From: a bacterium
GTDB taxonomy: Bacteria; Planctomycetota; Planctomycetia; Pirellulales; Pirellulaceae
Reading direction: 5' to 3'
Assembly: GCA_024743355.1 (NCBI GenBank)
Contig: JANSWS010000034.1
Location: forward strand, 1 to 33,189
DNA: 33,189 nt
Position numbers and translations under genes: made by a program. The notes under the pieces were generated by a model. That model was not told the DNA's origin. It saw only the letters and a program-made list of their open reading frames with translations, and searched no databases. Positions 3,851 through 22,337 of this stretch are shown here, piece by piece (the first letter of the stretch is position 1; each line of letters opens with the position of its first letter).

Positions 3851-3870
3851 GGCTGACCCGTTTGTCAGCC
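3851..3870 (-). other. Perfect 7-bp hairpin in the cysNC leader
   Basis: GGCTGAC (3851-3857) and GTCAGCC (3864-3870) are exact reverse complements around a six-base loop. The hairpin ends 23 bases before the cysNC start codon, inside the cysD-cysNC gap. There is no U-tract on either strand, so it is not a standard terminator. It may stabilise or process the mRNA between the two genes, or be chance. Confidence 0.35.
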
Positions 3871-4021
3871 GGTGTGCCTGGCGGTGGAAATGATGCTCGA
3901 AGGGTGTATCCAGTCTGAGAGCAAACATTAGAAATGATAGGTAGGGCGCGTCTTGTCAATGCAGGTATTCGGTCAGCCGCCCACGCGCTTGGGAACGACC
4001 ATCAAGTGACTTCCAACAGGT

Positions 4022-5774: not shown

Positions 5775-6536
5775 CTAAATCGGTTGTTGGCATTCCAGAC
5801 TGGTTAACCAGGCAAGAATGCTCTCAACCTCCGTCAAATCAGCGTGCACTCGATGCGCACCCGCACGCTGCAAATCTTGTGCTTCAAATCCTCCAGTGCA
5901 AACTGCCAAGCAGCGAGCCCCCATGGCTCTGGCCAGTTCGATATCCAGAGGCGTATCGCCAATAATAACGATGTTACTGGCGGGTACCTCCGCGGTAACT
6001 TGCTCGGCAATCAATTTCATCGCGGGTGCGGCCAGATGAGGCCGGTGAACCGCCAGGTCGCCGTAGACTCCAAATTTGAAATAATGCCAAAGCCCGAAAT
6101 GCTCGAGCTTGATACGAGCCGAAGCGGGCATATTCCCTGTCAGCAATCCCAAGTGGCATCTGGGGTCAACGCGTAGACTTGCCAGGAGTTGCTCAACTCC
6201 GGGAAGACTGCTGCCGCCGCGTCTCAGCATCTCTGCCGGCAATGCCTGAAAGTATACTTGGCAAAGCTTCTCTAGATTAGCCGTATTGGCCTGGATACCG
6301 TGTTTCTCAAGCAACTCTGTCATGATGCCGAGATCGGTTCGCCCATGCAGAGCTACCGGAACCGGATCCTGCACGCCGAAAGCCGCTTGCAGGGCTCCCA
6401 GCAAAGCGCCGCCTCCCGCCCCGGCGGAATCGATCAGCGTACCATCGATATCGAATAGCAACACGACCCTGGCAGAATCGTGATCACGCCCGCCAGGGCG
6501 GCTATCTTTCGGCAAGGATGATAGTCTTTCTGACAA
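5775..6536 (-). CDS. HAD-superfamily hydrolase, phosphoglycolate phosphatase-like
   Basis: A 253-residue haloacid-dehalogenase-type phosphatase. Motif I is LLFDIDGTLIDS (27-38), with the nucleophile and acid/base aspartates in DIDGT. Motif II is the threonine in LLTGN (131-135). A lysine at 174 is a candidate motif III, and motif IV is IIGDTPLDIELA (191-202). An alpha-helical cap (about 40-110) follows motif I, as in the Gph/beta-phosphoglucomutase subfamily. The substrate cannot be read from the sequence. The first in-frame start is a TTG with AAGG about ten bases upstream; a GTG at residue 25 would give a shorter protein beginning just before motif I, so the first 24 residues are uncertain. 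It is upstream of rsmG on the same strand. Confidence 0.88.
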   Translation of the reverse strand: MSERLSSLPKDSRPGGRDHDSARVVLLFDIDGTLIDSAGAGGGALLGALQAAFGVQDPVPVALHGRTDLGIMTELLEKHGIQANTANLEKLCQVYFQALPAEMLRRGGSSLPGVEQLLASLRVDPRCHLGLLTGNMPASARIKLEHFGLWHYFKFGVYGDLAVHRPHLAAPAMKLIAEQVTAEVPASNIVIIGDTPLDIELARAMGARCLAVCTGGFEAQDLQRAGAHRVHADLTEVESILAWLTSLECQQPI

Positions 6537-6624
6537 GCTACGAATACCTTGGGGATTTCGCTCGTGCCTCTGGCGTGGCGCAGTCTGCCGACGGTTGACG
6601 CCTGGAACACGGATGCGACAAAGC

Positions 6625-7635
6625 CTATTCGGAATCGCTCTCGTCCAGAATCATCAGCTCGACTTTGCGGAAATCGATCGGATGACTTTCCGATTGGAGC
6701 GAAATGAAGCCTTGCCGCAGCAGCAGCCCACCCTGTTTTTCGGCCAGCATTTTGGCGTGCTCGTCGCGTTCATCCAACTGAGGCTCCGAGTACTCCAAGA
6801 CCACTTCCCCGTCCATGATGTGCTTGACGACACCGCCGCCCCGAACCTCGACTTCGACGGTCACCCATTGCTCTCCATGGTAAGTTTTGGAAGTGGAGCT
6901 GGTGCAATGCGGTTTATGCAGTTGGCCGTTGAGCACAACGTTCGTGCCGGGGGTACACAGATTGGCCGTGGTGCGATCCTTTTGCCCGTCACCGCCTAGC
7001 AGTTGGACCTCGATGGAAGCCGGAAAATCCTGGTCCACCGTCATCAATTTGGGGTCTTCGCAATGCAACATCAGCCCACTGTTGCGAATGGCCCAACCCG
7101 GTCCACCGGGACACTGCTCACCCACAAATCGGTATTCGGCCCGCAAACGATAATGTCCAAATGGTTGCTCGAAGAACAAATGCCCGAAGCGTTCGCCGTA
7201 CTCCGCGTAGGCCTCGCTGTCATAACGGACTTTCAGCAATCCGTCTTCGACAAAAAACGTATTGGCGTAGTTTTCACCCAGCGGGTGGTAGCGAATTTTG
7301 GGTATCCAGCCCGTCAGGTCCTTACCGTTGAACAACTGGATCCAATCGCCCGCGGCTGCATTTTGGGGGGAATTGAGCGCCGCATCTTGGCCTGCTTCCT
7401 GCGCTTGCACGGCCGCTGTCGAAACGGCAAGCCATAGCCAGATGGCCCCGAAAACAGCCACTCCCCGCAAAAATACTGTAAGGAACTGACTGTACACGCG
7501 TCTTAAACAATGGAGGCAGTCTTCTACGACTTGTCCCGCCGGGCTCAAGCCGCCCGCAACGAACCCCATTTCAATCGCGGGGCCTGGATGCGTTGCCAGT
7601 TGCGACCATCCGCATGGAGAATTTTTTGCTGTCAT
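6625..7635 (-). CDS. Secreted DUF1080 (3-keto-disaccharide hydrolase-like) protein
   Basis: The protein contains one DUF1080 domain (concanavalin-like beta-sandwich), abundant in planctomycetes and linked to carbohydrate breakdown. Evidence is WIQLFNGKDLTGW at the domain start, HYRLRAEYRF, the signature SGLMLHCEDP, SIEVQLLGGD, and the closing segment FISLQSESHPIDFRKVEL. The export signal LTVFLRGVAVFGAIWLWLAV followed by an alanine-rich site (STAAVQAQE) lies about 55-85 residues in, so the N-terminus is unusually long. I place the start at the ATG at 7635 because AGG lies eight bases upstream; an ATG at 7647 adds four residues, and a GTG at 7497 would start just before the signal sequence and give a more normal signal peptide. 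The gene is divergent from the DsbD-like gene. Confidence 0.87.
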   Translation of the reverse strand: MTAKNSPCGWSQLATHPGPAIEMGFVAGGLSPAGQVVEDCLHCLRRVYSQFLTVFLRGVAVFGAIWLWLAVSTAAVQAQEAGQDAALNSPQNAAAGDWIQLFNGKDLTGWIPKIRYHPLGENYANTFFVEDGLLKVRYDSEAYAEYGERFGHLFFEQPFGHYRLRAEYRFVGEQCPGGPGWAIRNSGLMLHCEDPKLMTVDQDFPASIEVQLLGGDGQKDRTTANLCTPGTNVVLNGQLHKPHCTSSTSKTYHGEQWVTVEVEVRGGGVVKHIMDGEVVLEYSEPQLDERDEHAKMLAEKQGGLLLRQGFISLQSESHPIDFRKVELMILDESDSE

Positions 7636-7976
7636 TTGTTGCCTCATTTTTTGTTGTCAATGGACTGACATTGCCGGCAGTGACGCGTAGTAAATAGTAA
7701 CGCGTTCTAATTGCTGGGAATCAGAGAAACAAGCACCTAACCCTGTGTCCATCGCGGGGCGAAAAACAACCTTCCTGACAGACCAAACCCCACCCAAGGA
7801 CTATTTCCCGCCCTCAAGTGCTAGCAGGGAGAAACAATTCGTTTCCAAGGAAACCAATGGGTGAAACACGAATACTGCGTTGACCGATCCCCAAGAATGT
7901 TCGTAAATATAGTCGGAATTCCGGATCGCGACACGACGGTCCACCACCACTTGGCCGGTGGAGATGGAAAAGCGCT
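7636..7976. promoter_or_regulatory. Divergent intergenic region between DUF1080 and DsbD-like genes
   Basis: These 341 bases must hold the promoters of two divergent genes, and I see no supported gene here. A near-palindrome at 7841-7854, GTTTCC and GGAAAC separated by AA, has operator-like size. I could not assign convincing -35/-10 boxes. The end of the region contains GGTGGAGATGGAAAAGCGCT before the DsbD ATG, a weak ribosome binding site. Confidence 0.3.
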
Positions 7977-10466
7977 ATGTGGAAACAATTAAAGATGCAT
8001 ACCACGAATTCTTTAATCGGTTATCGAGCGCCAATTTGGGCGTCGCTACTGCTGGGACTATTCTTGGGTGCATTCTGCTCTGGGCAAGATAGCAAGTTCA
8101 GTAAAGGCGGCTTTTCGGATGGTGGCTTTGGCAATCTCGAATTGCCCACGGTGGATTCCGATGCGCCCCCGGTGGTATTCGGAGCGAATCAGCCAGCCAG
8201 CCTAGCAAAAAGCTTGCAGTTCAAGGCCCGCTATCAATTGGAAGAGCAGGGGCAAGGACGCGGGCGTCTGATCATCAAGGCTGAACTAGCCGATGGATAT
8301 CACACTTATTCCACGACTCAGCCACCCGGCGGGCCTTACGCAACGTCTTTCAGCATCGCGTCCAAGAATGCTCAGATCACTGGGGACTTTCAACCCGATC
8401 GCGATCCTAAGCTGGGCAAGGACGAAGCCGCTTACGGTGACTTGATCCTCGAGGAGTTCTACGATTCGGTGGTTTGGACGGCACCGATTCAGCTGGCCGA
8501 GGGCCTTGACCCACGTGACACAGTGCTGGAGGTAAAGGCGGATGCGTTGGTTTGTCGTCAAGCCTGCGAGCCTATCAAGGAGCAACTAGAAGCCGCGTTC
8601 GACGGCTACTACAGTGCCAGCAAGACGGTTGAATCTTTACGCGTGGAAAGAACCCATGCGGTCTGGCAGGCCAAGCTTCGCCCCAGCCAAGTTGCTCCTG
8701 GCCAGCAAGCCGTACTGGAACTGACTGCCACGAACGATCCCGGCTATCACGTCTATGAATTCGTGCCTAATGACGAAGAAGTCACCTTTCGAACGCTGAT
8801 CGTTGCCAAACGCAAATCCGGACTCAAGTTCGGGACCCCAACCACGGATGCCAACTTGGAAACATTCCCCGGACTGGATGACGTCAGGTACTATGGTGGC
8901 GAAGTTACCTGGAGCATCCCGGTCCATATTCCAGCTACAGCCCAAACCGGCGAGCTACCAATTGAGCTCATGGTCGGCTTCACCACTTGCAACGAGGGAA
9001 GTTGCGATGAACCTTCGGGGCTGCTGATCGAGGGATCCGTTCAGGTGGCGGAGCAGAGCTCGAATGAGATCAGGGCACTTTCCGTTTCCGCCTCTGACTT
9101 CAAGACGGTTGCGGATCTTCCTATGTTGGCCAGCTGGATTGATTTTGAGGCGGGACAAGTCCCTTCCGAGGGTATCGCGGCAGTGGACGATGCGTCGCAA
9201 GCCGCTGCGGCCGAAACACAGCCGTTGACTCTGTTTCATATTCTGGCCGCACTCGCCGGTGGCTTCATTCTGAACTTCATGCCTTGCGTCCTGCCAGTGA
9301 TTGGTTTGAAGGTCATGAGCTTTGTCAATCAAGCGGGCAACAGTCATCGACGTGTGGTCAGTTTGAATCTTGCCTATGTGGCCGGCATTCTGGCGGTCAT
9401 GTTGGTTCTGGCGGGACTGACCGTGGCCGCTAAACTCGCCTCGGATAGCGCTTTCGGTTGGGGCGAGCAATTTACCCATTTGGAATTCAAGGTAGTGCTG
9501 GCCTGCCTGGTATTTGCCATGGCGCTGAGTTTCTTAGGAGTATGGGAAATCCCGATTCCGGGCTTCGCGACCTCGAGCAAATCGGGCGAGCTGATGGAAA
9601 AGGAAGGTATGACAGGCGCCTTCCTGAAAGGTGTTTTGACAACGGTACTGGCAACGCCCTGTTCGGGTCCGCTGTTAGGCTCGCTATTTGGCTTGAGTTT
9701 GGTCCTTTCGCCTATCAACGTCATCCTGCTTTATGTCGTGGTTGGTCTGGGCATGGCGCTTCCCTTCTTGGTGTTGTGCTTTTATCCAGGCTTTATCCGC
9801 ATGTTGCCCAAGCCCGGAGCCTGGATGGAAACTCTCAAGCAGGCATTGGCGTTTCCGCTGCTGCTAACGGCCGTGTTCTTTGTCGCCAGCATTGATGACG
9901 AGCACCGCATCGCCACCCTCATACTGTTGATCATCGTCTGGTTTGCTTGCTGGTTGATTGGCCGCATACCAGCCTATGCGGACAGCTCCAAGCGGCGCCT
10001 GACCTGGGCGTTGTGCATGGCCGTGATCGGATTAGGAGCTTTCATGAGCTTTCGATTCTTCGGTCCTCTGGACTCCGATCTCGAATGGGTGGACTACAAC
10101 GAAACGCAACTTGCTCAGTACCGTGCAGAAGGAAAAACGGTGATGCTGGACTTCACCGCGAATTGGTGCTTGAACTGTCAGATCAATACGCGGGTAGCCA
10201 TCGACAAAGAAGGTGTAGCCAAACTCGTCCAGCAAAACGGAGTCATTCCCATGCTGGCGGATTGGACCGATCGCTCGGACGAAATTCGTGAGAAGCTCGA
10301 AGAACTGCAGAGCAATTCGATTCCCTTGCTGGTCATTTACCCACCTGACGCTTCCGCGGAACCGATTCTACTGAGAGACTTGCTGACCGAGTCGCAAGTC
10401 ATCGCCGCCTTGGAAGAGGCGGGACCAAGCCGTTCCAAGCAGAAATTGGCCAGCGTCATCCACTAA
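7977..10466 (+). CDS. DsbD-like thiol:disulfide interchange protein (protein-disulfide reductase)
   Basis: An 829-residue membrane protein that should pass electrons from cytoplasmic thioredoxin across the inner membrane to envelope thiol proteins. A signal sequence (about 18-36) is followed by a periplasmic region with two DsbD-alpha-like segments; each has a cysteine pair, CRQAC at 193-197 and CNEGSC at 338-343. The membrane core (about 415-660) has the two redox cysteines expected of the family, in FMPCVLPV (C437) and ATPCSGPLLG (C562). The C-terminal thioredoxin-like domain carries WCLNC at 730-734. E. coli DsbD is about 565 residues, so this one is longer, mainly through the doubled N-terminal region. 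ATGs at 7977 and 7995 are both possible starts. The stop codon overlaps the stop of the convergent transglutaminase gene. Confidence 0.93.
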   Translation: MWKQLKMHTTNSLIGYRAPIWASLLLGLFLGAFCSGQDSKFSKGGFSDGGFGNLELPTVDSDAPPVVFGANQPASLAKSLQFKARYQLEEQGQGRGRLIIKAELADGYHTYSTTQPPGGPYATSFSIASKNAQITGDFQPDRDPKLGKDEAAYGDLILEEFYDSVVWTAPIQLAEGLDPRDTVLEVKADALVCRQACEPIKEQLEAAFDGYYSASKTVESLRVERTHAVWQAKLRPSQVAPGQQAVLELTATNDPGYHVYEFVPNDEEVTFRTLIVAKRKSGLKFGTPTTDANLETFPGLDDVRYYGGEVTWSIPVHIPATAQTGELPIELMVGFTTCNEGSCDEPSGLLIEGSVQVAEQSSNEIRALSVSASDFKTVADLPMLASWIDFEAGQVPSEGIAAVDDASQAAAAETQPLTLFHILAALAGGFILNFMPCVLPVIGLKVMSFVNQAGNSHRRVVSLNLAYVAGILAVMLVLAGLTVAAKLASDSAFGWGEQFTHLEFKVVLACLVFAMALSFLGVWEIPIPGFATSSKSGELMEKEGMTGAFLKGVLTTVLATPCSGPLLGSLFGLSLVLSPINVILLYVVVGLGMALPFLVLCFYPGFIRMLPKPGAWMETLKQALAFPLLLTAVFFVASIDDEHRIATLILLIIVWFACWLIGRIPAYADSSKRRLTWALCMAVIGLGAFMSFRFFGPLDSDLEWVDYNETQLAQYRAEGKTVMLDFTANWCLNCQINTRVAIDKEGVAKLVQQNGVIPMLADWTDRSDEIREKLEELQSNSIPLLVIYPPDASAEPILLRDLLTESQVIAALEEAGPSRSKQKLASVIH

Positions 10467-11368
10467 TCGGCGTTCACCGCCTGCGGCAGTTCCTGAACAT
10501 CCACGGAGACCTGAATACTGTGCTCTCCTCCTCCGAGGAAGACTCCCCGCACGGGAATAACGTCGTTGTAATCCCGTCCCCAGGCTATGGGAATATGGTC
10601 CGTGTCACAGGAACGATTGTTGGTGGGATCCAGATCCACCCAGCCAACTGTCTGGCCGCAATATAGCGAGACCCACGCGTGGGACTGGTCCGCGCCGATC
10701 AACTTTTCCTTGCCTGGCGGAGGAACGGTTCTCAAATAACCACTGACATAACGCGCGCTGAGACCGATCGATCTCAAACACGCGATTTGAACGTGCGCAA
10801 AGTCTTGACAAACGCCATGCCGCATTTCAAAAGCTGCCGCCGTCGGTGTATACACCTCGGTAGCCTCAGCGTCGTATTTGAATTCGCGAAAAATCCGTTG
10901 GGTCAAATCGAGTGCCGCCTCAACGATCGGCCGATTCTTTAAAAACGACCGCCTGGCAAAGCTGGCATAACGTGCATCGATATCGATTCTGGGCGACGGA
11001 AATCGGTATTGGCAAGCATCAAACCAATTGCGATCCGTTTTCGCATCAACGGCTTCTCGAACCATTTCCCACGCCTCCGTAGCAGTAGGCTCAACAAGCG
11101 CCGCGTAGCTAACCTTGACTCGCCCAGAGGCCGAGACAACCAGCTGTTTATGGCTTTCGTTCAGTGAAAAACTGTGCAGTTGGTTACCGAAATAATCCTC
11201 GCGGCGGACGAGCGTCTCCGGATGGGGCTTCACCGTGATGCGGTAATAGCTGGGTTGCACAACGTTACTCGAACGCGGATAGAGCATCACGATATTGTGA
11301 CAAATGCGTACCGGCGACTCGTAGGAGTACGTGGTGGTATGTTCAATCTTGTAAGTAGTACAGCTCAT
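10463..11368 (-). CDS. Transglutaminase-like cysteine protease-fold protein
   Basis: About 301 residues from the ATG at 11368, which gives the family-like N-terminus CTTYKIEHTTTYSYESPV; a TTG at 11407 would add 13 residues. The first 90 residues match the bacterial transglutaminase N-terminal domain, a beta-rich segment ending near DYFGNQLHSF. The core carries the catalytic triad: Cys in MRHGVCQDFAHV, His in QSHAWVSLY and Asp in GWVDLDPTNN. No signal peptide or membrane segment is visible, so it is likely cytoplasmic. Such proteins may hydrolyse or form amide bonds; the substrate is unknown. It is the last gene of the five-gene operon, closely following the ATP-grasp/alpha-E fusion, and its stop overlaps the stop of the convergent DsbD-like gene by four bases. 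Confidence 0.9.
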   Translation of the reverse strand: MSCTTYKIEHTTTYSYESPVRICHNIVMLYPRSSNVVQPSYYRITVKPHPETLVRREDYFGNQLHSFSLNESHKQLVVSASGRVKVSYAALVEPTATEAWEMVREAVDAKTDRNWFDACQYRFPSPRIDIDARYASFARRSFLKNRPIVEAALDLTQRIFREFKYDAEATEVYTPTAAAFEMRHGVCQDFAHVQIACLRSIGLSARYVSGYLRTVPPPGKEKLIGADQSHAWVSLYCGQTVGWVDLDPTNNRSCDTDHIPIAWGRDYNDVIPVRGVFLGGGEHSIQVSVDVQELPQAVNAD

Positions 11369-11412
11369 CGGTGGTATCGAAATCCGTGCAATAGCGCTGG
11401 AAGCCAACTGGC

Positions 11413-13968
11413 TTACGATCGCGCGAAATGTCTTTGGAGTCCGGCATGAATGAGAAACTTGCCGCTGATTGCGTCCGAGAGCTTAGGTAGCTGCTCGACC
11501 AGCCTGCGCAACAACTTCTGCAGATTGGACCAATCTCCTTCGCGAACCTTAACTCCTAACTCAACCACGTCCGCCAGCCTGACCGAGTTGGACAGAGACA
11601 AAGCGATACGCTGCTCGGGCGAAATACTGGCTTGGGTATCGGGGCGTGGCAGGCGATCCACGTGCTGCGTGATAGCCTGCAATTGAAATGCAATCGATCT
11701 GGGATTGGTTTCGTCGGTTATCAACAGGTCCAGAACAGCCGCGAGTTGAATATTGGCCAGATAACGTCCGCGATAAGTCATAAAGCTATCGCATACCTGC
11801 AGGCAGTTCTCCAGAGAATTGTTCAGTTCAAATTTTTCGTCCTCCATGGGCAATAGACTCAGCAGAAGTTGGCTTGTTTGATAGGCTCGCTCGATCCGCC
11901 GGCCTAAGTCGAGAAACCTCCATCCCAGGGTGCGTGTCATGCTTTCACTGGCAAAGCCGCTGATCGCGTTCGTCAAAGTAATCGCTTCATCCAGCACGGT
12001 CATGAAATCCGTTGGCGCGATTCGCGCATCGCTATTTACCGAGCCCAGCAGATCACGGAGTTCGGTGATGACTCGAAAGCAGTCAATGGCCAGACGGTCG
12101 CGAACTTTGGCCGCGGTCGCGTGGGAGACCATCACAACTCCACGTAATGAATGGGCAACCTTACGGTCCAAAGCTCCGCGTGTAATTTCTTGGGCCAACA
12201 AGTATTCGTCGTCCAATTTTTCCGGTTTATCGAGTAGCTTGGCTCGGCGACAAGCCTTGAGCAGCCCATGCGTGCCGGCTGATGCCGCAGCTTCTCCAGT
12301 CAGTTCCTGAAGAACCAAGCGAACGAGTCGCGCGATCTGTTCGCTGCGTTCCAGGTTGCGTCCCAGCCAGAATAGGTTGTCCGCCACGCGACTGGGCAAT
12401 TCCGCCCCGGCCCGCTTGAGCTCGGTTTCCTGGACCGAGTTCTCGAGCAAGGAGACGTGCGGCACACTCTGATCGGAAACGATCCACACGTCTTGGCTTT
12501 TTTCGCCACTGGTCATGTTGTGACTCAGGACTTCGGGATCGGGCGAGACTCTTGCCAGCGCGCCGGGCAGAATCTGGTACGAGTTGTTCTTGGCGACAGC
12601 GTACGCCCGCAATGCCAGCGACCACGTCTGCAGACGGCCATCTTCGTACACCGGCGTTGTCGAGCGAACCATTCTTTCCTGGCCCACAAAGCGATGCGGT
12701 TGTTCTCGAATTCTGGCCACGAGCTTTTGCTTTTCCGCTTGCGTCATCTCGCTGGGACGGTAGGGCGGTTCATCGTCGCTGCGAAACGCATTGCGAATCA
12801 GCAGCTCATCCATATGCTCCAGAACATATTGCAACTCTGCTTCCTGTCCGCACCACCACGTAGCGACTGAGGGGACGATCAGATCTTGTCCGAAGAAGTG
12901 TTGGCAAACACTGGGCAGAAAGGCCAGTAGCAGAGGGGCCTCCGCCAGGGCGCTACCAATGGAATTGCTGACAGTCACGTCGCCGCTACGTACGACCTCC
13001 ATCAGACCTGCGATACCCTGGCGATCCCCGCCCAGTAACTCGACCGGATCACATTCCTGGTCTTCCACACGTCTCAAGAGCACTTCGACCGGAAGCAAAC
13101 CACCCAAGGTCTTAAGCATCACCCGTTGATCGCGGACCGCCAAATCCTCACCTTCAACCAAGGTATAACCCAGGTAACGGGCAAGAAATGAATCTTCAAA
13201 ATAGGCACGGCTGCCTGGACCCTTGGACCAGATCGCGATGCGAGGATTTTCACGATATCGTTTTGCCAGCCCCTTGAGTGTCTGCCGCAAGGTGATGAAG
13301 AAAGAAGCCAGCCGCACGGCGTTGCAATGCTGAAAGGCCTCGGGCAGCATGCGTGATGTGACCAGACGATTCTCGAGCAGATAGCCCAGACCGAAGGGGC
13401 TCCGCGTGCGTTCCGCGGTGATCCACCATTGGCCATCAAAGCTGCGGGCCAAATCAGCCGCGTAAAGATGCAGATGTTTTTTCGGGTGGGGGACTGCCGC
13501 GTGGCAGGCGGGCAAATAACGTGGATCCGCAAACAGAATTTCAGGCGGTAGCACCCGCTCACGCAGCAAAGTCTGCGGCCCCAGCAAGTCCAGCAAGACC
13601 AAATCGGCTAGCTGAGCTCGTTGGTCCATGCCCCGTTCGATCTTCTGCCATTCTTGCGCGTCGAGAACCAAAGGGATGGGATCCAGCCGCCATGGGCGCG
13701 AAACCCCTCGCGTTGAGTCATGCGGATTGAAAGCGACTCCATCCAGTTCCAATTGCTTCTGAGCTTGGAGGATGCGCCTTTCGAACTCGGGCAGCGACAT
13801 GCCGCTGAGACGTTGAAACAAGCGACTCCAGGAGGACCTCACATGTCCGGCAGAATCGACCGCTTCGTCATAGTGATCGAACCCCGGCCGGTACTGCTCG
13901 AGCAGGTCCGCAAAAGAAACGGGCGGTGCGTTGGGCTGAGCTTCTTCCTTGAATATTGGCTCGTTCAT
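11413..13968 (-). CDS. Circularly permuted ATP-grasp / alpha-E fusion protein
   Basis: An 851-residue two-domain protein. Residues about 15-480 are a circularly permuted ATP-grasp domain (COG2308 type): RPWRLDPIPLVLDAQEW, LHLYAADLARSFDGQWW, SPFGLGYLLENR and later SVATWWCGQ. Residues about 525-845 are an alpha-E domain (COG2307 type), starting with SRVADNLFWLGRNLERSE. ATP-grasp enzymes of this group are predicted amide- or peptide-bond ligases; the all-helical alpha-E partner is of unknown biochemistry. Where the stand-alone paralogue at 18508-19995 has EDN in its ligase motif, this copy has AER (185-187). Its ATG overlaps the amidoligase stop in the arrangement ATGA, so translation is probably coupled. 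It is cytoplasmic by appearance. Assignment to the families is secure; the reaction is inference. Confidence 0.93.
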   Translation of the reverse strand: MNEPIFKEEAQPNAPPVSFADLLEQYRPGFDHYDEAVDSAGHVRSSWSRLFQRLSGMSLPEFERRILQAQKQLELDGVAFNPHDSTRGVSRPWRLDPIPLVLDAQEWQKIERGMDQRAQLADLVLLDLLGPQTLLRERVLPPEILFADPRYLPACHAAVPHPKKHLHLYAADLARSFDGQWWITAERTRSPFGLGYLLENRLVTSRMLPEAFQHCNAVRLASFFITLRQTLKGLAKRYRENPRIAIWSKGPGSRAYFEDSFLARYLGYTLVEGEDLAVRDQRVMLKTLGGLLPVEVLLRRVEDQECDPVELLGGDRQGIAGLMEVVRSGDVTVSNSIGSALAEAPLLLAFLPSVCQHFFGQDLIVPSVATWWCGQEAELQYVLEHMDELLIRNAFRSDDEPPYRPSEMTQAEKQKLVARIREQPHRFVGQERMVRSTTPVYEDGRLQTWSLALRAYAVAKNNSYQILPGALARVSPDPEVLSHNMTSGEKSQDVWIVSDQSVPHVSLLENSVQETELKRAGAELPSRVADNLFWLGRNLERSEQIARLVRLVLQELTGEAAASAGTHGLLKACRRAKLLDKPEKLDDEYLLAQEITRGALDRKVAHSLRGVVMVSHATAAKVRDRLAIDCFRVITELRDLLGSVNSDARIAPTDFMTVLDEAITLTNAISGFASESMTRTLGWRFLDLGRRIERAYQTSQLLLSLLPMEDEKFELNNSLENCLQVCDSFMTYRGRYLANIQLAAVLDLLITDETNPRSIAFQLQAITQHVDRLPRPDTQASISPEQRIALSLSNSVRLADVVELGVKVREGDWSNLQKLLRRLVEQLPKLSDAISGKFLIHAGLQRHFARS

Positions 13969-16900
13969 TCGGGTTTCGGCTTGCGTCTTAAGTCGAGCGT
14001 GAGAGGAAACGTGGAATTGATCTCCTTAAATGGTAACTCACGCACGCCGGGAGTATGCCCCATGGGAAAGAATCGAGCGGCTCTTCGCGCTTCCGCTTCG
14101 TTTGCATTGACCGGAAAAGTCTCGTAATTCCTACCGGCGGGATGCGCCACATGGTAGCTGCACCCCCCTAAAGAACGCTTGGCGTCCCGATCCACGATAT
14201 CAAAAATCAAGGGTGTGTGAACGGGAATGGTGGGGTGCAAACAGCTAGCGGGTTGCCATGCGCGGTAGCGTACTCCACAGGTGTATTGTCCGGCCACACC
14301 GGTGGGATGCAGCGGTAGCTGACGGCCATTGCAGGTAATCACATAGCGAGAATCAACCGGAGCATCCAATCGTACTTGCAAACGCTCGACGCTGGAATCC
14401 ACGAATCGCACGGTGCCTCCCGCCGCCGGTTGTTCGCCCAGTACATACCAGGGCTCGATTGCCGTTCGCAGCTCGAGTCGCAATCCGTGTTGCACCAACT
14501 CTCCGATGAATGGAAAGCGGAATTCATAATGCGGCAGGAACCATTCTTTCTGCAGTTGGAATCCGCGGCGCTGCAAATCATCGATAACCCGCCCGAAGTC
14601 ATCCCATACAAAATGCGGCAGCATGTAACGATCATGCAGTGTCGTTCCCCAGTGAATCACCGGCTCGTCATAGGGCTGGTTCCAGAAAGAGGCTATCAGC
14701 GCACGAATGAGTAATTGTTGGGTCAAGCTCATCTCGGCATGAGGCGGCATCTCAAACCCTCGAAACTCGACCAAGCCCAGCCTGCCGCTGCTGCTATCGG
14801 GCGAAAACAGCTTGTCGATGCAGAATTCCGCGCGATGTGTGTTGCCGGTGAGATCAATCAACAAATTGCGAAACAAGCGATCGACCAACCAAGCGGGACA
14901 ATCCTCGCCAGGCTTGGGCACCAATTCAAAGGCCATCTCCAACTCATACAGCGCATCCCTGCGCCCTTCGTCGACACGCGGCGCTTGACTGGTGGGACCG
15001 ATAAACCGGCCACTGAACAGGTAGGACAAAGAGGGATGGTTGATCCAATATGCCAACAGGCTCTTCAGCAGATCAGGACGCCTTAAGAAAGGGCTGTCCT
15101 CGGCCCTGGCGGCACCTACAACGACGTGGTTGCCACCGCCGGTTCCGGTGTGCTTCCCATCCAAATCGAACTTTTCCGTACCCAAACGCGTCTGTCTCGC
15201 CTCGGCATACAAGGCCGTGGTGATGTCGGCCAACTCTTGCCAGCTAGTGGCTGGATGCGTATTCACTTCGATAACACCCGGATCCGGGGTGACCTTGAGC
15301 ACGTGAATGCGAGAATCGTTTGGGGGATGATATCCCTCGACAACCACTTGCACGTCCATTTCCACGGCGCAGGCTTCCACAGCTGCAACCAATTCGAGGT
15401 AGTCCTCGACGCGCTCCACCGGAGGCATGAACACATACAAATGTCCATCGCGACATTCGACGCATAAGGCAGTGCGAATCACGGGTCCGCTTAACTCGGT
15501 CGAAGATGCCCCATCTCTTTGAGCTTCAGAACTTACAGGCTCTGCGGGGCCGTCCCCGGCCGATCGTTGACCAGCGGTTTCCAGCACTTGCGGATGGATC
15601 GTTTGCTGTTCCACGTCGAAGGTCTCGCCGCTCAAAGTACTCTGCCGATGAGCCAGTGGCGTGGGTAGCGACTGCACCGGGGCCAAGGGATCCATCTCCA
15701 GCATGGGCGGCTCGGTGCCAGGGGCCGCATAGGGTAGCGAATCCAGCGGCAATCGCAGCCCGACCGGTGAATCGCCGGGCAGTAGGAACAGTTGCTTGGA
15801 CCGGACGGGCCATGGACCACTTACCCATGGAGATTTTGCCTGCCACCATTGCCGGCGCAGCGGGAGCACGAAGCCTACCGGCTCGTTCAGGCCACGCTCG
15901 AAAACTCGAACTAACCGTTCACGCTCCTCAGGGTCTTTCAGCTTGGGATCCGTGGGATCCAGATTGACGGGCAAACGCTGCTCTTTAACCAGAAAGAAGG
16001 CCACATCCTCGAAAGCCGGCACGATGTAGTCCTGACTGACACGCAGCCATTCGGCCAGCTTGCGGACGAAGCGGCCTGCGTGCTGACTGGTATACACGCC
16101 AGGCTGGCTGGTGTCGCTAAAACGTGAGGCGTCCCTCCAGATCGGTTTGCCATCTTTCCGCCAATAGCATGCCAAAGACCAGCGTGGCAGTGACTCACCT
16201 GGATACCACTTGCCCTGTCCGAAATGCAACAAACCTCCTGGTCCAAATCGCTCGCGCAGACGATGAATCAATTGCTCAGACAGTCGCCTTTTGTTTTTGC
16301 CGACAGCCGTGGTATTCCATTCCTCGCCGTCCATGTCGTCGATGGAGACGAAGGTGGGTTCTCCACCCATGGTTAGCCGCACATCCCCATCTTTCAGGCT
16401 TTGATCCACGAACTGCCCTAGCCGGTCGATGGCGGCCCATTGATCCGAGGTGTAGGGTTTCGTGACGCGCGGATCCTCGTGGATTCGCGTGACCTCCATA
16501 CTGAAATCAAAGTCCACATTGCAGACCTCGATATCTCCGGAAATGGGCGCCGCCGATTTCGGGTCGGGTGTGGCTGCCAGCGGAATGTGTCCCTCTCCGG
16601 CCAAAAGTCCGGAGGTCGGATCCAGGCCGACCCAACCCGCGCCGGGAATGTAGACCTCCGCCCAGGCGTGAAGGTCTGTAAAGTCCGCCTCGGGGCCGGC
16701 CGGACCATCTAAAGGCTTCAGATCTGGAGCGAGCTGAATCAGGTAGCCCGAGACAAAACGTGCTGCCAGCCCAAACCTGCGCAACAATTGAATCAACAAC
16801 CAGGCGGTATCGCGACAGGAGCCACAACGCCTTTCCAAGGTTTGCTCAGGTGTCTGAACACCGGCTTCCATACGAATCATGTACTGAATATCGCGTTGCA

Positions 16901-17369
16901 GCCGCTGATTCAATTCGACCACAAATTGCGTAGTCTGTTTGTGGCCGCCGCCGAGCAACTCCTGATTGGCATCCTCCCAATACTGATCCAATAACTGACC
17001 AACGGATTGCGTTTCCAGGAACGGCTTGAGTTCCGTGGCCAGCCAAGCCTCATATTGAAAAGGAAACTTGTCGGCTGACGCCTCAATAAAGAAATCAAAG
17101 GGATTGATGACGGTCATTTCCGCCATTAGTTCCACTTCGATCCGAAACTCTCGCGCTTTCTTGGGAAATACAAAGCGGGCCAGGAAATTCCCGCTGGGAT
17201 CCTGCTGCCAATTGACAAAGTGGTCTTGCGGCTCCACCCGCAGCGAGTAGCTCAGGATGGGCGTTCGGCAGTGAGGTGCAGGCCGCAGCCGCACAATCTG
17301 CGGTTGCATGGAAATCAGACGGTCGTAGCGGTAACGCGTGCAATGATGCAGTGCGACACGAATTGTCAT
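13965..17369 (-). CDS. Transglutaminase / DUF2126 amidoligase fusion protein
   Basis: A 1134-residue multidomain protein from the ATG at 17369, which has GGAG six bases upstream; a longer frame from a TTG at 17405 lacks this support. Residues 1-90 are the bacterial transglutaminase N-terminal domain. The transglutaminase core has Cys185 (RRCGSCRDTAW), His234 (TDLHAWAEVY) and Asp250 (GWVGLDPTSG). From about 320 to the end is DUF2126, annotated in Pfam as a putative amidoligase related to the glutamine synthetase fold: LTMGGEPTFVSIDD, LLHFGQGKWYPGE, and DLDGKHTGTGGGNHVVVG near the active site. A low-complexity Pro/Ser/Glu-rich linker of about 80 residues interrupts DUF2126 (forward positions about 15490-15720). 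One chain thus carries a potential amide-bond former and a potential amide-bond cleaver. It is the middle gene of the operon. Confidence 0.93.
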   Translation of the reverse strand: MTIRVALHHCTRYRYDRLISMQPQIVRLRPAPHCRTPILSYSLRVEPQDHFVNWQQDPSGNFLARFVFPKKAREFRIEVELMAEMTVINPFDFFIEASADKFPFQYEAWLATELKPFLETQSVGQLLDQYWEDANQELLGGGHKQTTQFVVELNQRLQRDIQYMIRMEAGVQTPEQTLERRCGSCRDTAWLLIQLLRRFGLAARFVSGYLIQLAPDLKPLDGPAGPEADFTDLHAWAEVYIPGAGWVGLDPTSGLLAGEGHIPLAATPDPKSAAPISGDIEVCNVDFDFSMEVTRIHEDPRVTKPYTSDQWAAIDRLGQFVDQSLKDGDVRLTMGGEPTFVSIDDMDGEEWNTTAVGKNKRRLSEQLIHRLRERFGPGGLLHFGQGKWYPGESLPRWSLACYWRKDGKPIWRDASRFSDTSQPGVYTSQHAGRFVRKLAEWLRVSQDYIVPAFEDVAFFLVKEQRLPVNLDPTDPKLKDPEERERLVRVFERGLNEPVGFVLPLRRQWWQAKSPWVSGPWPVRSKQLFLLPGDSPVGLRLPLDSLPYAAPGTEPPMLEMDPLAPVQSLPTPLAHRQSTLSGETFDVEQQTIHPQVLETAGQRSAGDGPAEPVSSEAQRDGASSTELSGPVIRTALCVECRDGHLYVFMPPVERVEDYLELVAAVEACAVEMDVQVVVEGYHPPNDSRIHVLKVTPDPGVIEVNTHPATSWQELADITTALYAEARQTRLGTEKFDLDGKHTGTGGGNHVVVGAARAEDSPFLRRPDLLKSLLAYWINHPSLSYLFSGRFIGPTSQAPRVDEGRRDALYELEMAFELVPKPGEDCPAWLVDRLFRNLLIDLTGNTHRAEFCIDKLFSPDSSSGRLGLVEFRGFEMPPHAEMSLTQQLLIRALIASFWNQPYDEPVIHWGTTLHDRYMLPHFVWDDFGRVIDDLQRRGFQLQKEWFLPHYEFRFPFIGELVQHGLRLELRTAIEPWYVLGEQPAAGGTVRFVDSSVERLQVRLDAPVDSRYVITCNGRQLPLHPTGVAGQYTCGVRYRAWQPASCLHPTIPVHTPLIFDIVDRDAKRSLGGCSYHVAHPAGRNYETFPVNANEAEARRAARFFPMGHTPGVRELPFKEINSTFPLTLDLRRKPKPE

Positions 17370-17375
17370 TAAGGA

Positions 17376-17379
17376 CTCC
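17376..17379 (-). promoter_or_regulatory. Ribosome binding site deciding the amidoligase start
   Basis: GGAG on the minus strand, six bases upstream of the ATG at 17369. It favours this ATG over an upstream TTG, and the resulting protein begins MTIRVALHHCTRYRYD, a normal start for the transglutaminase N-terminal domain. Confidence 0.6.
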
Positions 17380-17507
17380 AGAAGCGACTCGCTAGCCTTG
17401 GGCAATCAAAACTTGAACGCAGGTCGGGGAATGCGAAGACAGTGGAACCACAAGGCATCCGCCGGCCGACGAGCCTGGCGGGGCCGACCAGCACTCGTTG
17501 GCCCGCG

Positions 17508-18494
17508 CTAATTCGACTGGGTCTGGGATTGTGTCGATTCAACCTTCGTCGTGCGACCAAAGAAGATCTCCGCAATAGCTTCACCAACTTCGTTCAGTTT
17601 GACCTGTAGATCGTCCACAAACTCGTGCAGACCACCGTTTACGATGCTCTGAACGTCCGAGTATGCCAACTCAGACTTTAGGCGTCCCAAACGCTGTTCA
17701 GCCAGATTCTGAAACGTATTCAGCGGCGAACCAGAAATCGCATGCAAAGATTCATCGGCGTGATTGATGCAAAACTGGACCGCCCGAGGAAAGTGTCGAT
17801 CCAGGACCAGGAACTCAACCACCTTGTCTACGGAAATCGCGTGAAATTGTTTGCGGTAGGTTTCAAAACCCGAAACACTGCGCAAAACGCTCGACCATTG
17901 TAAATCGTCCAGCGTCGTACCCACGTCATTGGGATCGGGTAGCAAAGTGTAGTACTTGACGTCCAGAATCCGACTGGTTTTGTCGGCCCGCTCGATGAGC
18001 CGACCAAGATTGGCGAAATGCCAGCCACTAGCGTGCGACAGCGTGGCATCCAGGATGCCGTTGAACAACTGACTTTGCTCGCGAATGGCATCGAAAAACT
18101 CGGATTCCGTCTGATTCTCGGCTTGCTGTCGGTGCGAGGCACCACGCACCATGTGATAGAACTGGTTGATTTGCTCCCAGGCCTCGGAGGAGATCGCTTC
18201 CCGCACCGTACGTGCGTTCTCGCGGGCGGCATTCAAGCAAGAGATAATGGAACCTTCGTAGTCGCGATCGAACACCAGAAACTCGATGACTTTGCTTCCA
18301 TCGGCTTCGCCATATCGAGTCTCAAAATATTCTTGGTCCCCCGTCGTGTAGACCAGCGGTTCCCATTGACTTTCGAAATGCGACGGCTGATCCAGAATCA
18401 GATTCAGCGTCACGTCTACGAAACGAGCCAGGTTCTCCGCTCGTTCAACGTAGCGTGACATCCAGTAGATAGAATCCGCGACCCGACTTAACAT
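17508..18494 (-). CDS. Alpha-E domain protein (COG2307/DUF403)
   Basis: A 328-residue all-helical protein. It begins MLSRVADSIYWMSRYVERAENLARFVDV, the characteristic alpha-E N-terminus, and continues through helices including FYHMVRGAS, GWHFANLGRLIERADKTSRILD and WSSVLRSVSGFETYRKQF. A longer frame from 18554 would overlap the upstream gene by 47 bases; GAGGAG at 18504-18509 supports the start used here. It is homologous to the C-terminal half of the 851-residue fusion protein. No enzymatic activity is established for this family; it is consistently encoded with circularly permuted ATP-grasp proteins. It lies 13 bases downstream of that gene and 138 bases upstream of the amidoligase gene. Confidence 0.92.
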   Translation of the reverse strand: MLSRVADSIYWMSRYVERAENLARFVDVTLNLILDQPSHFESQWEPLVYTTGDQEYFETRYGEADGSKVIEFLVFDRDYEGSIISCLNAARENARTVREAISSEAWEQINQFYHMVRGASHRQQAENQTESEFFDAIREQSQLFNGILDATLSHASGWHFANLGRLIERADKTSRILDVKYYTLLPDPNDVGTTLDDLQWSSVLRSVSGFETYRKQFHAISVDKVVEFLVLDRHFPRAVQFCINHADESLHAISGSPLNTFQNLAEQRLGRLKSELAYSDVQSIVNGGLHEFVDDLQVKLNEVGEAIAEIFFGRTTKVESTQSQTQSN

Positions 18495-18503
18495 GCCCTG
18501 CAG

Positions 18504-18509
18504 CTCCTC
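18504..18509 (-). promoter_or_regulatory. Ribosome binding site deciding the alpha-E start
   Basis: GAGGAG on the minus strand, nine bases before the ATG at 18494 and overlapping the TGA stop (18508-18510) of the ATP-grasp gene. The overlap suggests that ribosomes ending the ATP-grasp protein re-initiate on the alpha-E gene. Confidence 0.65.
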
Positions 18510-19995
18510 AGATTGGCCGTTCCGCTTCGGAATCGACAACTTGTTCCGGGACATCCGCCAAAACCCAGGTGTCCTTGCTTCCTCCCCCCTGGGACGAATT
18601 CACCACGAGCGAACCCTTTCGAAGCGCCACTCGAGTCAAGCCGCCTGGCAAAACCCAGACATCCTTGCCGTACAGAATATAGGGGCGAAGATCCACATGT
18701 CGACCTTCAAAATGATCGTCGACTAAGGTTGGGACGCGCGACAGCGAAAGCGTGGGTTGGGCAATGTAATTTCGAGGATCCTCCTGAACTTTATGGGCAA
18801 ATTCGGCTCGCTCCTCTGGAGTTGCGTGCGGTCCAACCAGCATGCCATAGCCACCTGCCTCGTTGGCCGCCTTGACGACCAGCTTATCCAAGTTCGCCAG
18901 TACGTATTTTCGGTCTTCTTCCCTTGCACAGATGTAGGTTGGGACATTCGGCAGAATCGGCTCCTCGTCCAAATAGTACCGAATGAAGTCAGGCACATAG
19001 GCATAGATGACTTTGTCATCCGCGATGCCGGTCCCCGGAGCATTGGCCAGTGCGACTCGCCCCGATCGATACGCGTTCATCAGCCCCGGGACGCCCAACA
19101 TGGAATCCTTGCGAAAGGCAGTCGGATCGATAAAGTCATCATCAATACGACGATAGATAACATCTACGCGCTGAAAGCCATCGGTCGTCCGCATATACAC
19201 AAAGCCATCTTTGACGACCAAATCCCGTCCTTCGACCAATTCAACTCCCATTTGCTGAGCCAAGAACGAGTGCTCATAGTAAGCCGAGTTATAAATTCCG
19301 GGAGTCAGCACCACGACTTGAGGGTTATTCACATGCTCGGGTGCAAGTTGAACCAAGGTCTCATATAACTTGATGGGATAATCGAACACCGGCCGCACGT
19401 TGGATTCGGCGAAGGCCAGAGGGAAGCTGCGTTTCATTAACAAGCGATTCTGCAGCACGTAGGAGACGCCTGAGGGGCAGCGCAAATTATCCTCTAAGAC
19501 GTAGACAGCTCCATCCTTATGCCGGATCAGATCGGTGCCGGTTATGTGGCACCAAACGCCTTTGGGTGGTCTCAGCCCGATACACTGCCGGCGGAAAGAA
19601 GCGGCTGCCGTTACCAGTTCGATCGGGATGATCTGGTCCTTGAGAACATCCTGCTCGTTATAGATATCGTCTATAAACAAGTTCAGAGCTCGGATGCGTT
19701 GCTTAAGACCTGCCGCAATGTGATTCCACTCGAATGCCTCGACAATCCTGGGCACGATGTCGAAGGGAAAGATCTTTTCAGTGCCGCTCTCATCACCGTA
19801 GACCGCGAAGGTGATACCCATGCGGTGCAGCGCCCGCTCAATGGCTCCTTGGCGTTCTCGCAGCTTGCCCTCCGGCAAACTGTCGATGAAATCTACCAAT
19901 ACCTGAGCGCCTGGTCTTGGCTGGCCCCGGTTATTGAACAACTCATCGTGAAACCCTTCGGTTTGATAACCTTCAAATGTTAGCTTGCCCGACAT
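18508..19995 (-). CDS. Circularly permuted ATP-grasp protein (COG2308)
   Basis: About 495 residues from the ATG at 19995, giving the family-like N-terminus [19 protein letters not shown]; an ATG at 20010 and a TTG at 20052 are alternatives, and none has a well-placed Shine-Dalgarno sequence. Motifs of the circularly permuted ATP-grasp family are [85 protein letters not shown], and near the end [17 protein letters not shown], an ATP-binding lysine/glycine loop. The family is predicted to ligate carboxylates to amines with ATP. It is the first gene of the five-gene operon and is followed after 13 bases by its alpha-E partner. Confidence 0.92.
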
Positions 19996-20113
19996 AGACG
20001 GATGGCGCATGGGAACGGGGAAGGGATATGAGAAAGTACCGACAAAAACCAAGCCACCTATGTTTTTGCCGTCGATGATCTATCGTCGCACATTCCATGG
20101 GGATAGCAAGGGT

Positions 20114-20192: not shown

Positions 20193-21329
20193 CTAATGGG
20201 CGCTGCTCAGGATGGCAAATCTGCCTTCCGAGCCGACGGCGAAAACATCCCGATGGCCCACATCCAGAGCATGAAATCCAATTGCAGAAAACGAGTGCCA
20301 GACATCACCATCGACCGACCAATCGGAGCCGGAGGGACCCGTGGCGACCCAAAATCCAGAACCAAGACCAGCGTCACTGCTCGCGGATAGATGCACCACC
20401 GAAGAACGGAATTCTGAGGGTGGCTTGGACGAAGGTCGCCAATTCCGCCCAAGATCGTCGCTAACGGCAACCGTCACCGGCGAACTGGCTCCCTGCACAT
20501 AGTCACCACCTACGGCTAACAGTCGACCCGCACCCATGGCCAGCGAAAAAACGCCTTGGGTAGGACCACTGGGAATGGGGACCTCAGTATGCGACCAAGC
20601 CTCCTGCGCGCCGACTCGATAATAGACGCGACTACCGGCAGCGTCTGTGCCTCCCGTTCCGATCCAGGCCCCCCCGAATTCAGACAAAAGCACACATGAG
20701 TTGCTTGCCGCAAAGCCGGCCTCGCCAACTCGGCTCTCGGGCAAAGACCGACCGGGGATTGGCCGCCACAGAGCCCCACCGTTCGTAGTTTCCAAGACCA
20801 GTAAGCGGCCGTCGATGGGGTCACCGACTGCCACTCCGTATTGTGCATCCGAGAAACGTAGCGAATTCAGGAAGGCTTCGGCGGCCTCGTGGCGAAACAC
20901 CTCGCGCCAACTCACACCCCCGTCAGTGGTTCGCATGATGATGGCTGGCGAGCCGGCACTTGCAATCAGCGCATGCTCATGATCGAAGGCGTGCACCGAA
21001 CGAAACTCTAAAGCCCCCAGACCAGCTGGACCACATTCCTCCCAACTGGAGCCCCGATCCCGACTTCTCAGAACGGTAGCTCCACTACCACAGGCCCAAA
21101 TCACATTGTCGTCGACGGCACACACCCCGCGGAGACTTGCACGGCTTCCTGTCGGACCAAGCTCCCAAGTCCGTTCGAATTGGGGCTGGTCAACCTGCCG
21201 CTGATCGGCAACCTGACCATGGCAAACTCCGAGCGAGGCAACGCCGCCTCCCATGCAAAGCGAAATTGCGAAAGTCAGACTGGCGGAAAAGAAAACGACT
21301 TGCTTGCCTCGGCAGTTCTTCGAACGCAT
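20193..21329 (-). CDS. Secreted YCF48/BNR-like beta-propeller protein
   Basis: About 378 residues from the ATG at 21329, which has GAGG nine bases upstream; a GTG at 21353 would add eight residues. An N-terminal signal peptide (VVFFSASLTFAISLCMGGGVASLGVCHGQ) indicates export. The body is a series of beta-propeller repeats of the YCF48/sialidase-like type, each with an Asp-x-Gly-x-x-Trp turn: SRDRGSSWEEC, TTDGGVSWREV, TTNGGALWRPI, SDDLGRNWRPS and DGDVWHSF. Proteins annotated YCF48 are named for a photosystem II assembly factor, but in heterotrophs the fold is common in secreted proteins of unknown role. It precedes the five-gene operon on the same strand with about 197 bases between coding parts, so linkage is possible but unproven. 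Confidence 0.8.
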   Translation of the reverse strand: MRSKNCRGKQVVFFSASLTFAISLCMGGGVASLGVCHGQVADQRQVDQPQFERTWELGPTGSRASLRGVCAVDDNVIWACGSGATVLRSRDRGSSWEECGPAGLGALEFRSVHAFDHEHALIASAGSPAIIMRTTDGGVSWREVFRHEAAEAFLNSLRFSDAQYGVAVGDPIDGRLLVLETTNGGALWRPIPGRSLPESRVGEAGFAASNSCVLLSEFGGAWIGTGGTDAAGSRVYYRVGAQEAWSHTEVPIPSGPTQGVFSLAMGAGRLLAVGGDYVQGASSPVTVAVSDDLGRNWRPSSKPPSEFRSSVVHLSASSDAGLGSGFWVATGPSGSDWSVDGDVWHSFSAIGFHALDVGHRDVFAVGSEGRFAILSSAH

Positions 21330-21428
21330 ATTGCCGGACCTCAGGAAGTTCACACTGGCGTTTATGGAAAGCTGCCGCGGAACAAAAACTCTGCGGCGCG
21401 AGCCTCACAAGGTAGACAAACACACGCT

Positions 21429-22337
21429 TCAACTTGCCGTCAAGCGTTCAAATATCAGCCGCTGTTCCACCAGAGCGGCCACTTTATCTTGCGGATCGGT
21501 GCGGGCTTCCAATAAGATCCATCCCGCATAGTCGATGCCGCGAAAGAGCCGCATCAATTGCTCGTAAGGATAGTCACCCAGATTCAACTCGCGGACATGG
21601 ACCGTATCTCCGAATCGCTCCTGAACCATTTTGAAGTTTGCCTCGAGCCCATCGCCGGCCAGATCCTCGTTGTTGCTATTCCAGCAGACATAGACGTTGG
21701 GATGATCTGCGACTTCGAAAATATCGCGAATCACGGGCAGCGCGCTGGTACCGGTTCCATGCACTTCGACGCGAATCTTTTGTCCATATCCCTCGCCAAA
21801 CGCGGCGACTTCATTCAGCGACTTGCCGATTTGCTCGATCGTCTTCTCATGCGGAACTCCCTTGGCAAAACCATTCGGCTTGACCTTCACCCCCGTGCCG
21901 CCACAATCGTGCATGAGCTCAACAAAGCGTTTCGTGTCCTCAATGTTCTTGCGGACCTGAGCCACATCGGCGGAGTGATACTCGCAATTCGAGCCGTAAC
22001 CGATCAGCTCAACCTGACTATCCGCGAAGCGTTTTCGAACCTCATCGCGTTCAGCGGCTGACAAACTCGGTTCTACCGCATGCTTGTGCTCAGTTCGTAA
22101 CTCAACGCCCCTGACGCCGCTTTGCTCGCAGGTGTCGATTAACTCTGGTAGAGTCATATCCTTTCCCCAGAGATAGGTCACCAGCCCGAACTGCATATTC
22201 GAATCTGCCGGCTTGCCCCATGCCGAACTCGATAAACAACTGGCTGCACCGGCAGCCAGGAACGCTTGCGAAGACCGAACAAGCATTTGACGACGATTGG
22301 GAGGCGAAAACCTGGGGGTGGCTGCGTTCTGAGACAT
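21429..22337 (-). CDS. Sugar phosphate isomerase/epimerase-like TIM-barrel protein with Tat-type signal
   Basis: A 302-residue protein of the xylose-isomerase-like AP-endonuclease-2 family. The N-terminus has a twin-arginine motif (NRRQMLV) followed by SSQAFLAAGAASCLSSSAWGK, suggesting folded export by Tat. The barrel shows GVRGVELRTEHKH, QVELIGYGSNCEYH, GGTGVKVKPNG, KIRVEVHGTG, VYVCWNSN, TVHVRELN and AGWILLEAR; the Glu, His and Asp/Asn residues in these segments fit the usual divalent-metal site. Planctomycetes encode many such proteins, often with sugar oxidoreductases, but no dehydrogenase partner is beside it here. Substrate unknown. A strong hairpin lies 39-80 bases upstream of the start codon. 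Confidence 0.87.
   Translation of the reverse strand: MSQNAATPRFSPPNRRQMLVRSSQAFLAAGAASCLSSSAWGKPADSNMQFGLVTYLWGKDMTLPELIDTCEQSGVRGVELRTEHKHAVEPSLSAAERDEVRKRFADSQVELIGYGSNCEYHSADVAQVRKNIEDTKRFVELMHDCGGTGVKVKPNGFAKGVPHEKTIEQIGKSLNEVAAFGEGYGQKIRVEVHGTGTSALPVIRDIFEVADHPNVYVCWNSNNEDLAGDGLEANFKMVQERFGDTVHVRELNLGDYPYEQLMRLFRGIDYAGWILLEARTDPQDKVAALVEQRLIFERLTAS

Follow-up and report, generated by a model that had tools for sequence, protein, structure and literature searches.

ATP-grasp proteins, glutamine synthetase (GS)-like ligases, alpha-E proteins and transglutaminase (TG)-like enzymes were reportedly linked in 2009 by Iyer, Abhiman, Burroughs and Aravind in a Mol BioSyst paper. As quoted in later studies, these families and their gene neighborhood were predicted to form a peptide-synthesis or tagging system (PMC6376114; PMC5666114), and a TG-ligase fusion was noted in 2008 for Mycobacterium Rv2566 (PMC2588565). 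The Anbu operon, which encodes an ATP-grasp, an alpha-E protein, a TG and Anbu (PMC6376114; PMC5666114), has the same stand-alone ATP-grasp/alpha-E core as the locus analyzed here. This locus lies on contig JANSWS010000034.1 of a member of the Pirellulaceae (Planctomycetota; assembly GCA_024743355.1, 8.31 Mb in 823 contigs); the whole stretch of 33,189 nt, which is one complete contig, is referred to as the window. Its five adjacent minus-strand genes are abbreviated as G (stand-alone ATP-grasp), E (stand-alone alpha-E), TD (TG-DUF2126), GE (fused ATP-grasp/alpha-E) and T (stand-alone TG). In the place of Anbu, the G-E pair is accompanied here by TD, by a pseudo-ligase fusion and by T: the ATP-grasp, alpha-E and TG genes of the Anbu operon were present in the window, and a gene for the Anbu NTN-hydrolase was not found. 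The window is a further member of the already predicted family system. It shows the same families and the same gene-neighborhood idea as the 2009 proposal, but no Anbu was found in this genome and its fused ATP-grasp lacks the catalytic motif.

Compared with glutathionylspermidine synthetase/amidase (E. coli GspS, 2io7) and glutathione synthetase, the putative amidase of the cluster is a TG-like protein rather than a fused CHAP domain. GS-like amine ligases such as GmaS (7cqw) and 1-naphthylamine GS (8x6z) would, according to a structure model, share the GS fold with DUF2126, and probably also a logic of ligation followed by hydrolysis for nitrogen scavenging. DUF2126 differs from them by its fusion to a TG domain, and its profile recovered no GS by sequence from the PDB. 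PuuA of the gamma-glutamyl putrescine route is a further GS-like amine ligase. Pupylation also involves a ligase of the GS superfamily, PafA, which forms an isopeptide bond, but no gene for a Pup-like small protein was seen near the cluster.

We propose that the cluster encodes a cytosolic pathway for building and cutting amide bonds, which consists of two cooperating modules and is used mainly under nitrogen limitation; we assign this reading a probability of approximately 45%. It builds on domain assignments, active-site states, modelled folds, a two-module structure in which one module depends on the other, and sigma54-type sites in relatives; the roles of the alpha-E and pseudo-ligase proteins, the direction of flux, the substrate class and the nitrogen role in the host are what we infer. 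In module 1 (G and E), the ATP-grasp would activate a carboxylate with ATP and then join it to an amine, with alpha-E as its probable helical partner because of the constant pairing of the two proteins and their fusion in GE. In module 2 (TD, GE and T), the GS-fold DUF2126 domain would make a second amide, while the two papain-like TG enzymes would hydrolyse or transfer amides. The pseudo-ligase/alpha-E fusion most likely acts as a carrier, scaffold or regulator that binds the product of module 1 or associates with the active ligase, because acyl-phosphate formation appears to have been lost while the ligase fold and alpha-E were kept. Overall, a poor nitrogen source (an amine or peptide) would be condensed with a carboxylate and processed, and usable nitrogen would be freed by amide hydrolysis, a ligate-then-hydrolyse logic like that of amine glutamylation/deglutamylation routes. 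The multi-step amide chemistry assumed in an initial annotation of the window is reasonable, but regulation in relatives fits nitrogen scavenging better than the tagging or cross-linking which that annotation suggested.

The families assigned to the five genes in the initial annotation were recovered as Pfam matches. G matched CP_ATPgrasp_2 (8.9e-170) and 3n6x (1.2e-166) and retained E187, N189, K347, K394 and GGYG, which, by analogy with GspS and human glutathione synthetase, we take to be the metal-binding Glu-x-Asn, the ATP-binding Lys and the glycine loop. E187, N189 and K347 were present in 55 of 55 stand-alone ATP-grasps (6 of 61 pieces were left out as too short) and all seven motif residues in 54 of these. 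By its residues, G carries the motif of a catalytically competent ATP-grasp ligase. The ATP-grasp of the Yersinia Anbu operon has been reported to liberate phosphate from ATP (PMC6376114). The alpha-E protein E (Pfam Alpha-E, 1.2e-105) contains two ER motifs, E37-R38 and E188-R189, which were invariant in 57 of 57 sequences. The two halves of this protein (P0002) are duplicates of each other, and each carries one of the ER motifs.

GE also matched both families (CP_ATPgrasp_2, 8.7e-129; Alpha-E, 2e-65), and the initial annotation had accordingly counted two ligase pairs. At the motif positions, however, the window's protein (P0004) has A185, R187, P345, R392, D398, D399 and P401. Counterparts of E187, N189 and K347 were kept in none of 90 fused proteins, which retain 0 to 3 of the seven catalytic residues, and E187 has no constant replacement (A in 36, S in 22, G in 17, N in 9, R in 5 and one other). 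Near-invariant residues specific to the fused kind, W372 (88/90), G374 (89/90) and G195 (88/90), suggest that selection on the fused protein continues. A single split with an SH-aLRT support of 100 separated stand-alone from fused ATP-grasps in a tree thinned to 35 and 61 sequences, respectively. Judged by these positions, the fused ATP-grasp is a ligase-fold protein without the catalytic motif. The second ligase pair was consequently not upheld; the loss of active-site residues that had been named as a possible objection to the pathway was found in this one of the five proteins. Among the literature matches listed, which did not extend to the text of the main 2009 paper, nothing was found on an inactive fused ATP-grasp. 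A fused gene without DUF2126 was seen in five genomes (G065, G072, G221, G307 and G316, the last three classed as fused by frame length only).

TD combines Bact_transglu_N, Transglut_core (8.6e-18) and DUF2126, whose profile was matched over positions 1-826 of 826 with 1321.6 bits. The predicted structure of DUF2126 shows a GS-type ligase fold and supports its earlier assignment as a GS-fold amidoligase. T contains Bact_transglu_N and Transglut_core (3isr match, 2.4e-10), with a putative Cys200-His243-Asp260 catalytic triad. Both TG enzymes of the window have an intact triad; each residue was conserved in 102 of 102 TD proteins, and in T proteins Cys was found in 102, His in 105 and Asp in 105 of 105. 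Sampled T genes that follow GE fell on one side of a branch with a support of 100/99. In one planctomycete (locus L052, genome G033), a second, partial DUF2126 gene (6517-8892) follows TG-DUF2126 (8726-12202), and no fused gene was found there.

Co-occurrence was analyzed in three sets of genomes. In a draw of 148 planctomycete genomes, DUF2126 was found in 23, the window's genome included, Alpha-E in 35 and PF14403 in 39 (33 above cut-off). After weak matches were dropped, the stand-alone ATP-grasp was present in 23 of 23 DUF2126 genomes (two partial) and the fused gene in 21 of 23, versus 2 of 125 genomes without DUF2126. A second draw comprised 150 genomes from the phylum of one Pseudomonas, which was chosen for having DUF2126 and is itself counted. 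DUF2126 occurred in 50 of these, together with the stand-alone gene in all 50 and with a gene of fused length in 46, versus 3 of 100 genomes without DUF2126. In 50 further DUF2126 genomes, which underlie 50 of the 80 cross-phylum loci discussed below and in which matches were judged by frame and score, stand-alone and fused-type matches were each detected in 49 (exceptions G161 and G189, respectively; one fused-type match was split over contig ends). Stand-alone genes were, in contrast, frequent without DUF2126 (9 of 32 in the planctomycete draw and 36 of 86 in the Pseudomonas-centred draw). These results indicated that the TD-GE-T module is nearly always accompanied by the G-E pair and not vice versa. 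The survey proposed in the initial annotation did not reveal the lack of co-conservation that would have counted against it.

Gene order was compared at 80 cross-phylum loci, whose record titles name Proteobacteria, Planctomycetes, Verrucomicrobia, Acidobacteria, Nitrospirota and Desulforhopalus-type genera. GE was located downstream of TD in 68, and 64 of these also had T. No GE was found within the stretch in the other 12; six of these have less than 4 kb of contig left, and of the other six (L057, L059, L062, L073, L121 and L126), the four whose genomes were searched (L057, L059, L062 and L073) all proved to have a fused-type gene outside the stretch. G or E was on the same strand in 18 loci and on the opposite one in 12; in the remaining 50, neither lay within the stretch (the stretches being of unequal length). 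In the 21 planctomycete loci, the window among them, the three counts were 11, 4 and 6. The complete row G-E-TD-GE-T on one strand was shared by 9 of 20 further planctomycete loci retrieved around DUF2126, one of them truncated at a contig end, and by 14 of the 80 cross-phylum loci when rows with an additional T are counted as well. The set thus recurs beyond chance. Six-gene variants with an extra TG (L093, L100, L127 and L065) were T-G-E-TD-GE-T in Desulforhopalus/Desulfosediminicola and G-E-T-TD-GE-T in Burkholderia. In relatives, the modules frequently lie at a distance from each other or on different strands, and each has its own sigma54-like sites. The five-gene row therefore represents two modules placed together rather than one indivisible unit, and the single operon originally described was not supported as such a unit. 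Separate promoters, another objection that had been anticipated, are indicated by the sites ahead of each module in relatives, but none was seen in the window.

Sigma54 (-24/-12) sites were scanned for in 250 nt upstream of script-chosen starts, at a score of at least 17.5 and with hand-written weights based on the consensus. Sites were found ahead of 26 of 60 G genes and 38 of 102 TD genes, versus 27 of 759 among the remaining genes of these loci; for planctomycetes only, these values were 12 of 32, 4 of 25 and 2 of 130, and after removal of similar upstream regions 19 of 50, 24 of 82 and 22 of 636. Internal GE genes were preceded by a site in 4 of 90 cases. With 150 column-permuted motifs of matched control frequency, maximum fractions were 0.100 (G) and 0.127 (TD), versus 0.433 and 0.373 with the real motif. 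Of 24 deduplicated TD sites, 21 lay 31 to 94 nt ahead of the chosen start; G sites were more spread (40 to 250 nt). Both same-family relatives that were fetched (L046 and L047) had sites ahead of both modules, and the window's genome has a sigma54 gene.

Expression data from proteobacteria are consistent with such regulation. The Burkholderia cenocepacia cluster I35_5080-83, which comprises DUF404/407, DUF403, TG and a large TG protein, appears in a list of genes that depend on sigma54 and NtrC, with expression changes of -6.0 to -9.4 in an ntrC mutant (PMC5491218). By analogy, these genes probably correspond to G-E-T-TD, the order of Burkholderia locus L065, which has a sigma54-like site ahead of G. 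In Pseudomonas putida, expression of PP2685-2687, a cluster with a TG-like gene, was 6.6 to 11.1 higher in nitrogen-limited than in carbon-limited chemostats (PMC3325844). In marine metagenomes, these domains were linked with urea metabolism (PMC3597751).

Several observations weigh against a nitrogen-scavenging role. No sigma54 site was detected in the window in 460 nt before G or the TD domain (best scores 14.4 and 15.9, respectively), and more than half of all G and TD genes had no site at the chosen threshold. Sigma54 also serves processes unrelated to nitrogen, and we know of no substrate for the cluster. NtrC-like half-sites were only weakly enriched (G 9/60, TD 8/102, other genes 31/759), and no nitrogen gene was present among the ten recurring neighbors scanned. 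The published expression data are all proteobacterial, and PP2685-2687 are tied to the five-gene system through the TG annotation only. One DUF2126 genome of 50 (G161) has no stand-alone match, and specific interactions among Anbu-operon proteins could not be detected in the Yersinia study (PMC6376114).

Anbu may be an alternative partner of the same core. It was found in 6 of the 148 planctomycetes, each time adjoining the G-E pair and in 5 of 6 cases without DUF2126. If only planctomycetes that have a stand-alone ATP-grasp are considered, 1 of 23 DUF2126 genomes and 5 of 9 genomes lacking DUF2126 carried Anbu (p 0.003). A search with a single planctomycete Anbu sequence detected none in the window's genome at E 0.001; a PF00227 match at C355 resembles HslV (65.7 bits). 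In a Nitrospiraceae contig (L121), 4 nt separate an Anbu-like open reading frame (ORF; 3701-4429) from the TG-DUF2126 gene downstream of it, which directly links both systems. It is possible, although on balance unlikely, that the fused protein is an ancient pseudo-ligase and an obligatory carrier or regulator that passes the ATP-grasp/alpha-E product to TG-DUF2126, in a widespread nitrogen-starvation pathway that would use or recycle nitrogen by way of transient amide bonds and for whose core Anbu and DUF2126 would be alternative partners. Record titles place ATP-grasp/alpha-E fusions in Planctomycetes, Proteobacteria, Verrucomicrobia, Acidobacteria, Nitrospirota and Desulfobacterota-type genera.

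The rival account that survives best is protein tagging, the 2009 idea as quoted in the Anbu papers (PMC6376114; PMC5666114), in which proteins would receive amino acids or a peptide from the ligases, and TG or peptidase parts would take these off again or mark the proteins for breakdown. The adjacency of Anbu to the G-E pair in six planctomycetes and to TG-DUF2126 in L121 is consistent with it, as are the modelled GS fold of DUF2126 and the placement of the TG-ligase fusion in the carboxylate-amine ligase superfamily of the Pup ligase (PMC2588565). We nevertheless consider tagging doubtful: the small conserved neighboring peptides that the initial annotation proposed to survey were not found, no convincing conserved small ORF (25-120 aa) or tag gene being seen next to the core in the 14 largest clusters listed (Pup was not searched genome-wide), and PMC2588565 likewise reports none for the TG-ligase fusion family. 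Moreover, Anbu and DUF2126 seldom share a planctomycete genome. Retention of enzyme activity by the fused ATP-grasp with a changed chemistry, such as a different metal site or adenylyl or phosphoryl transfer, appears improbable in view of the complete absence of the metal Glu/Asn and K347 from all 90 proteins, the loss of most of the glycine loop and the inconstant replacement of E187. Similarly improbable is nitrogen storage, in which the cluster would make and later degrade a non-ribosomal peptide or amino-acid polymer similar to cyanophycin or polyglutamate. Several ligases and hydrolases together and a tie to nitrogen status in relatives would suit such a role, but expression in two proteobacteria increased when nitrogen was short, which fits use rather than storage, and the ten window proteins that were scanned included no polymer synthase family. 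Very improbable is a chance meeting, in this lineage, of two unrelated systems built from paralogous proteins: although the stand-alone pair was outside the stretch (of unequal length) or on the opposite strand in many cross-phylum loci, DUF2126 without a stand-alone ATP-grasp was found in 0 of 73 genomes of the two draws and 1 of 50 of the third set, sigma54-type sites precede both modules, and 11 of the 21 planctomycete loci have them on the same strand.

Coordinates of the five genes are given in Table 1. The ORF list confirmed the positions in the initial annotation (G 18508-20052; E 17508-18554; TD 13965-17405; GE 11413-13968; T 10463-11407), but its TTG starts probably lie upstream of the true ones. 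For G, ATG 20010 or 19995 is more likely than TTG 20052, and for E, ATG 18494 is preceded by AGGAG. TD most likely starts at ATG 17369, with GGAG 6 nt upstream, rather than at TTG 17405, and T at ATG 11368 rather than at TTG 11407. The revised starts leave 138 nt between E and TD and 44 nt ahead of T. Both close junctions recognized earlier are present, namely a 13-base gap from the G stop (18510-18508) to the ATG of E and an ATGA overlap of GE and TD (13968-13965).

Table 1. Genes and inter-module gap of the amidoligase cluster in the window.
Feature	Coordinates	Strand	Basis
G, predicted stand-alone circularly permuted ATP-grasp ligase (P0001)	18508..20010	-	CP_ATPgrasp_2
E, stand-alone alpha-E protein (P0002)	17508..18494	-	Pfam Alpha-E
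E-TD gap, 138 nt, likely border between two modules	17370..17507	-	modules separable in relatives
TD, transglutaminase-like domain fused to predicted DUF2126 GS-fold amidoligase	13965..17369	-	Pfam + model
GE, fused putative pseudo-ATP-grasp + alpha-E (P0004)	11413..13968	-	Pfam
T, stand-alone transglutaminase-like protein	10463..11368	-	Pfam

Across the genome, these families gave one match for DUF2126 and two each for ATP-grasp and alpha-E, all of them within the window. Hydropathy analysis revealed no membrane segment in any of the five proteins (top 19-residue mean 1.66, versus 2.69 in the neighboring DsbD-like protein). This neighbor (7977-10466), a DsbD-type thiol:disulfide protein with DsbD_N, DsbD_TM and thioredoxin domains, is convergent with T, and their 3' ends share 4 nt (10463-10466). 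Other neighbors, at 6625-7647, 20193-21353 and 21429-22337, encode 3-keto-disaccharide hydrolase family, Ycf48/BNR-like and xylose-isomerase-like TIM barrel proteins, respectively; no link to the cluster was seen.

Since 2009, the families of this cluster have figured as predicted ligases without an assigned role, and DUF2126 was found in 50 of 150 genomes of the Pseudomonas-centred draw and in 23 of 148 planctomycetes. With the loss of the ligase motif located, near-obligatory partners defined and a sigma54 signature found in relatives, the question of their function is reduced to a small number of direct tests.

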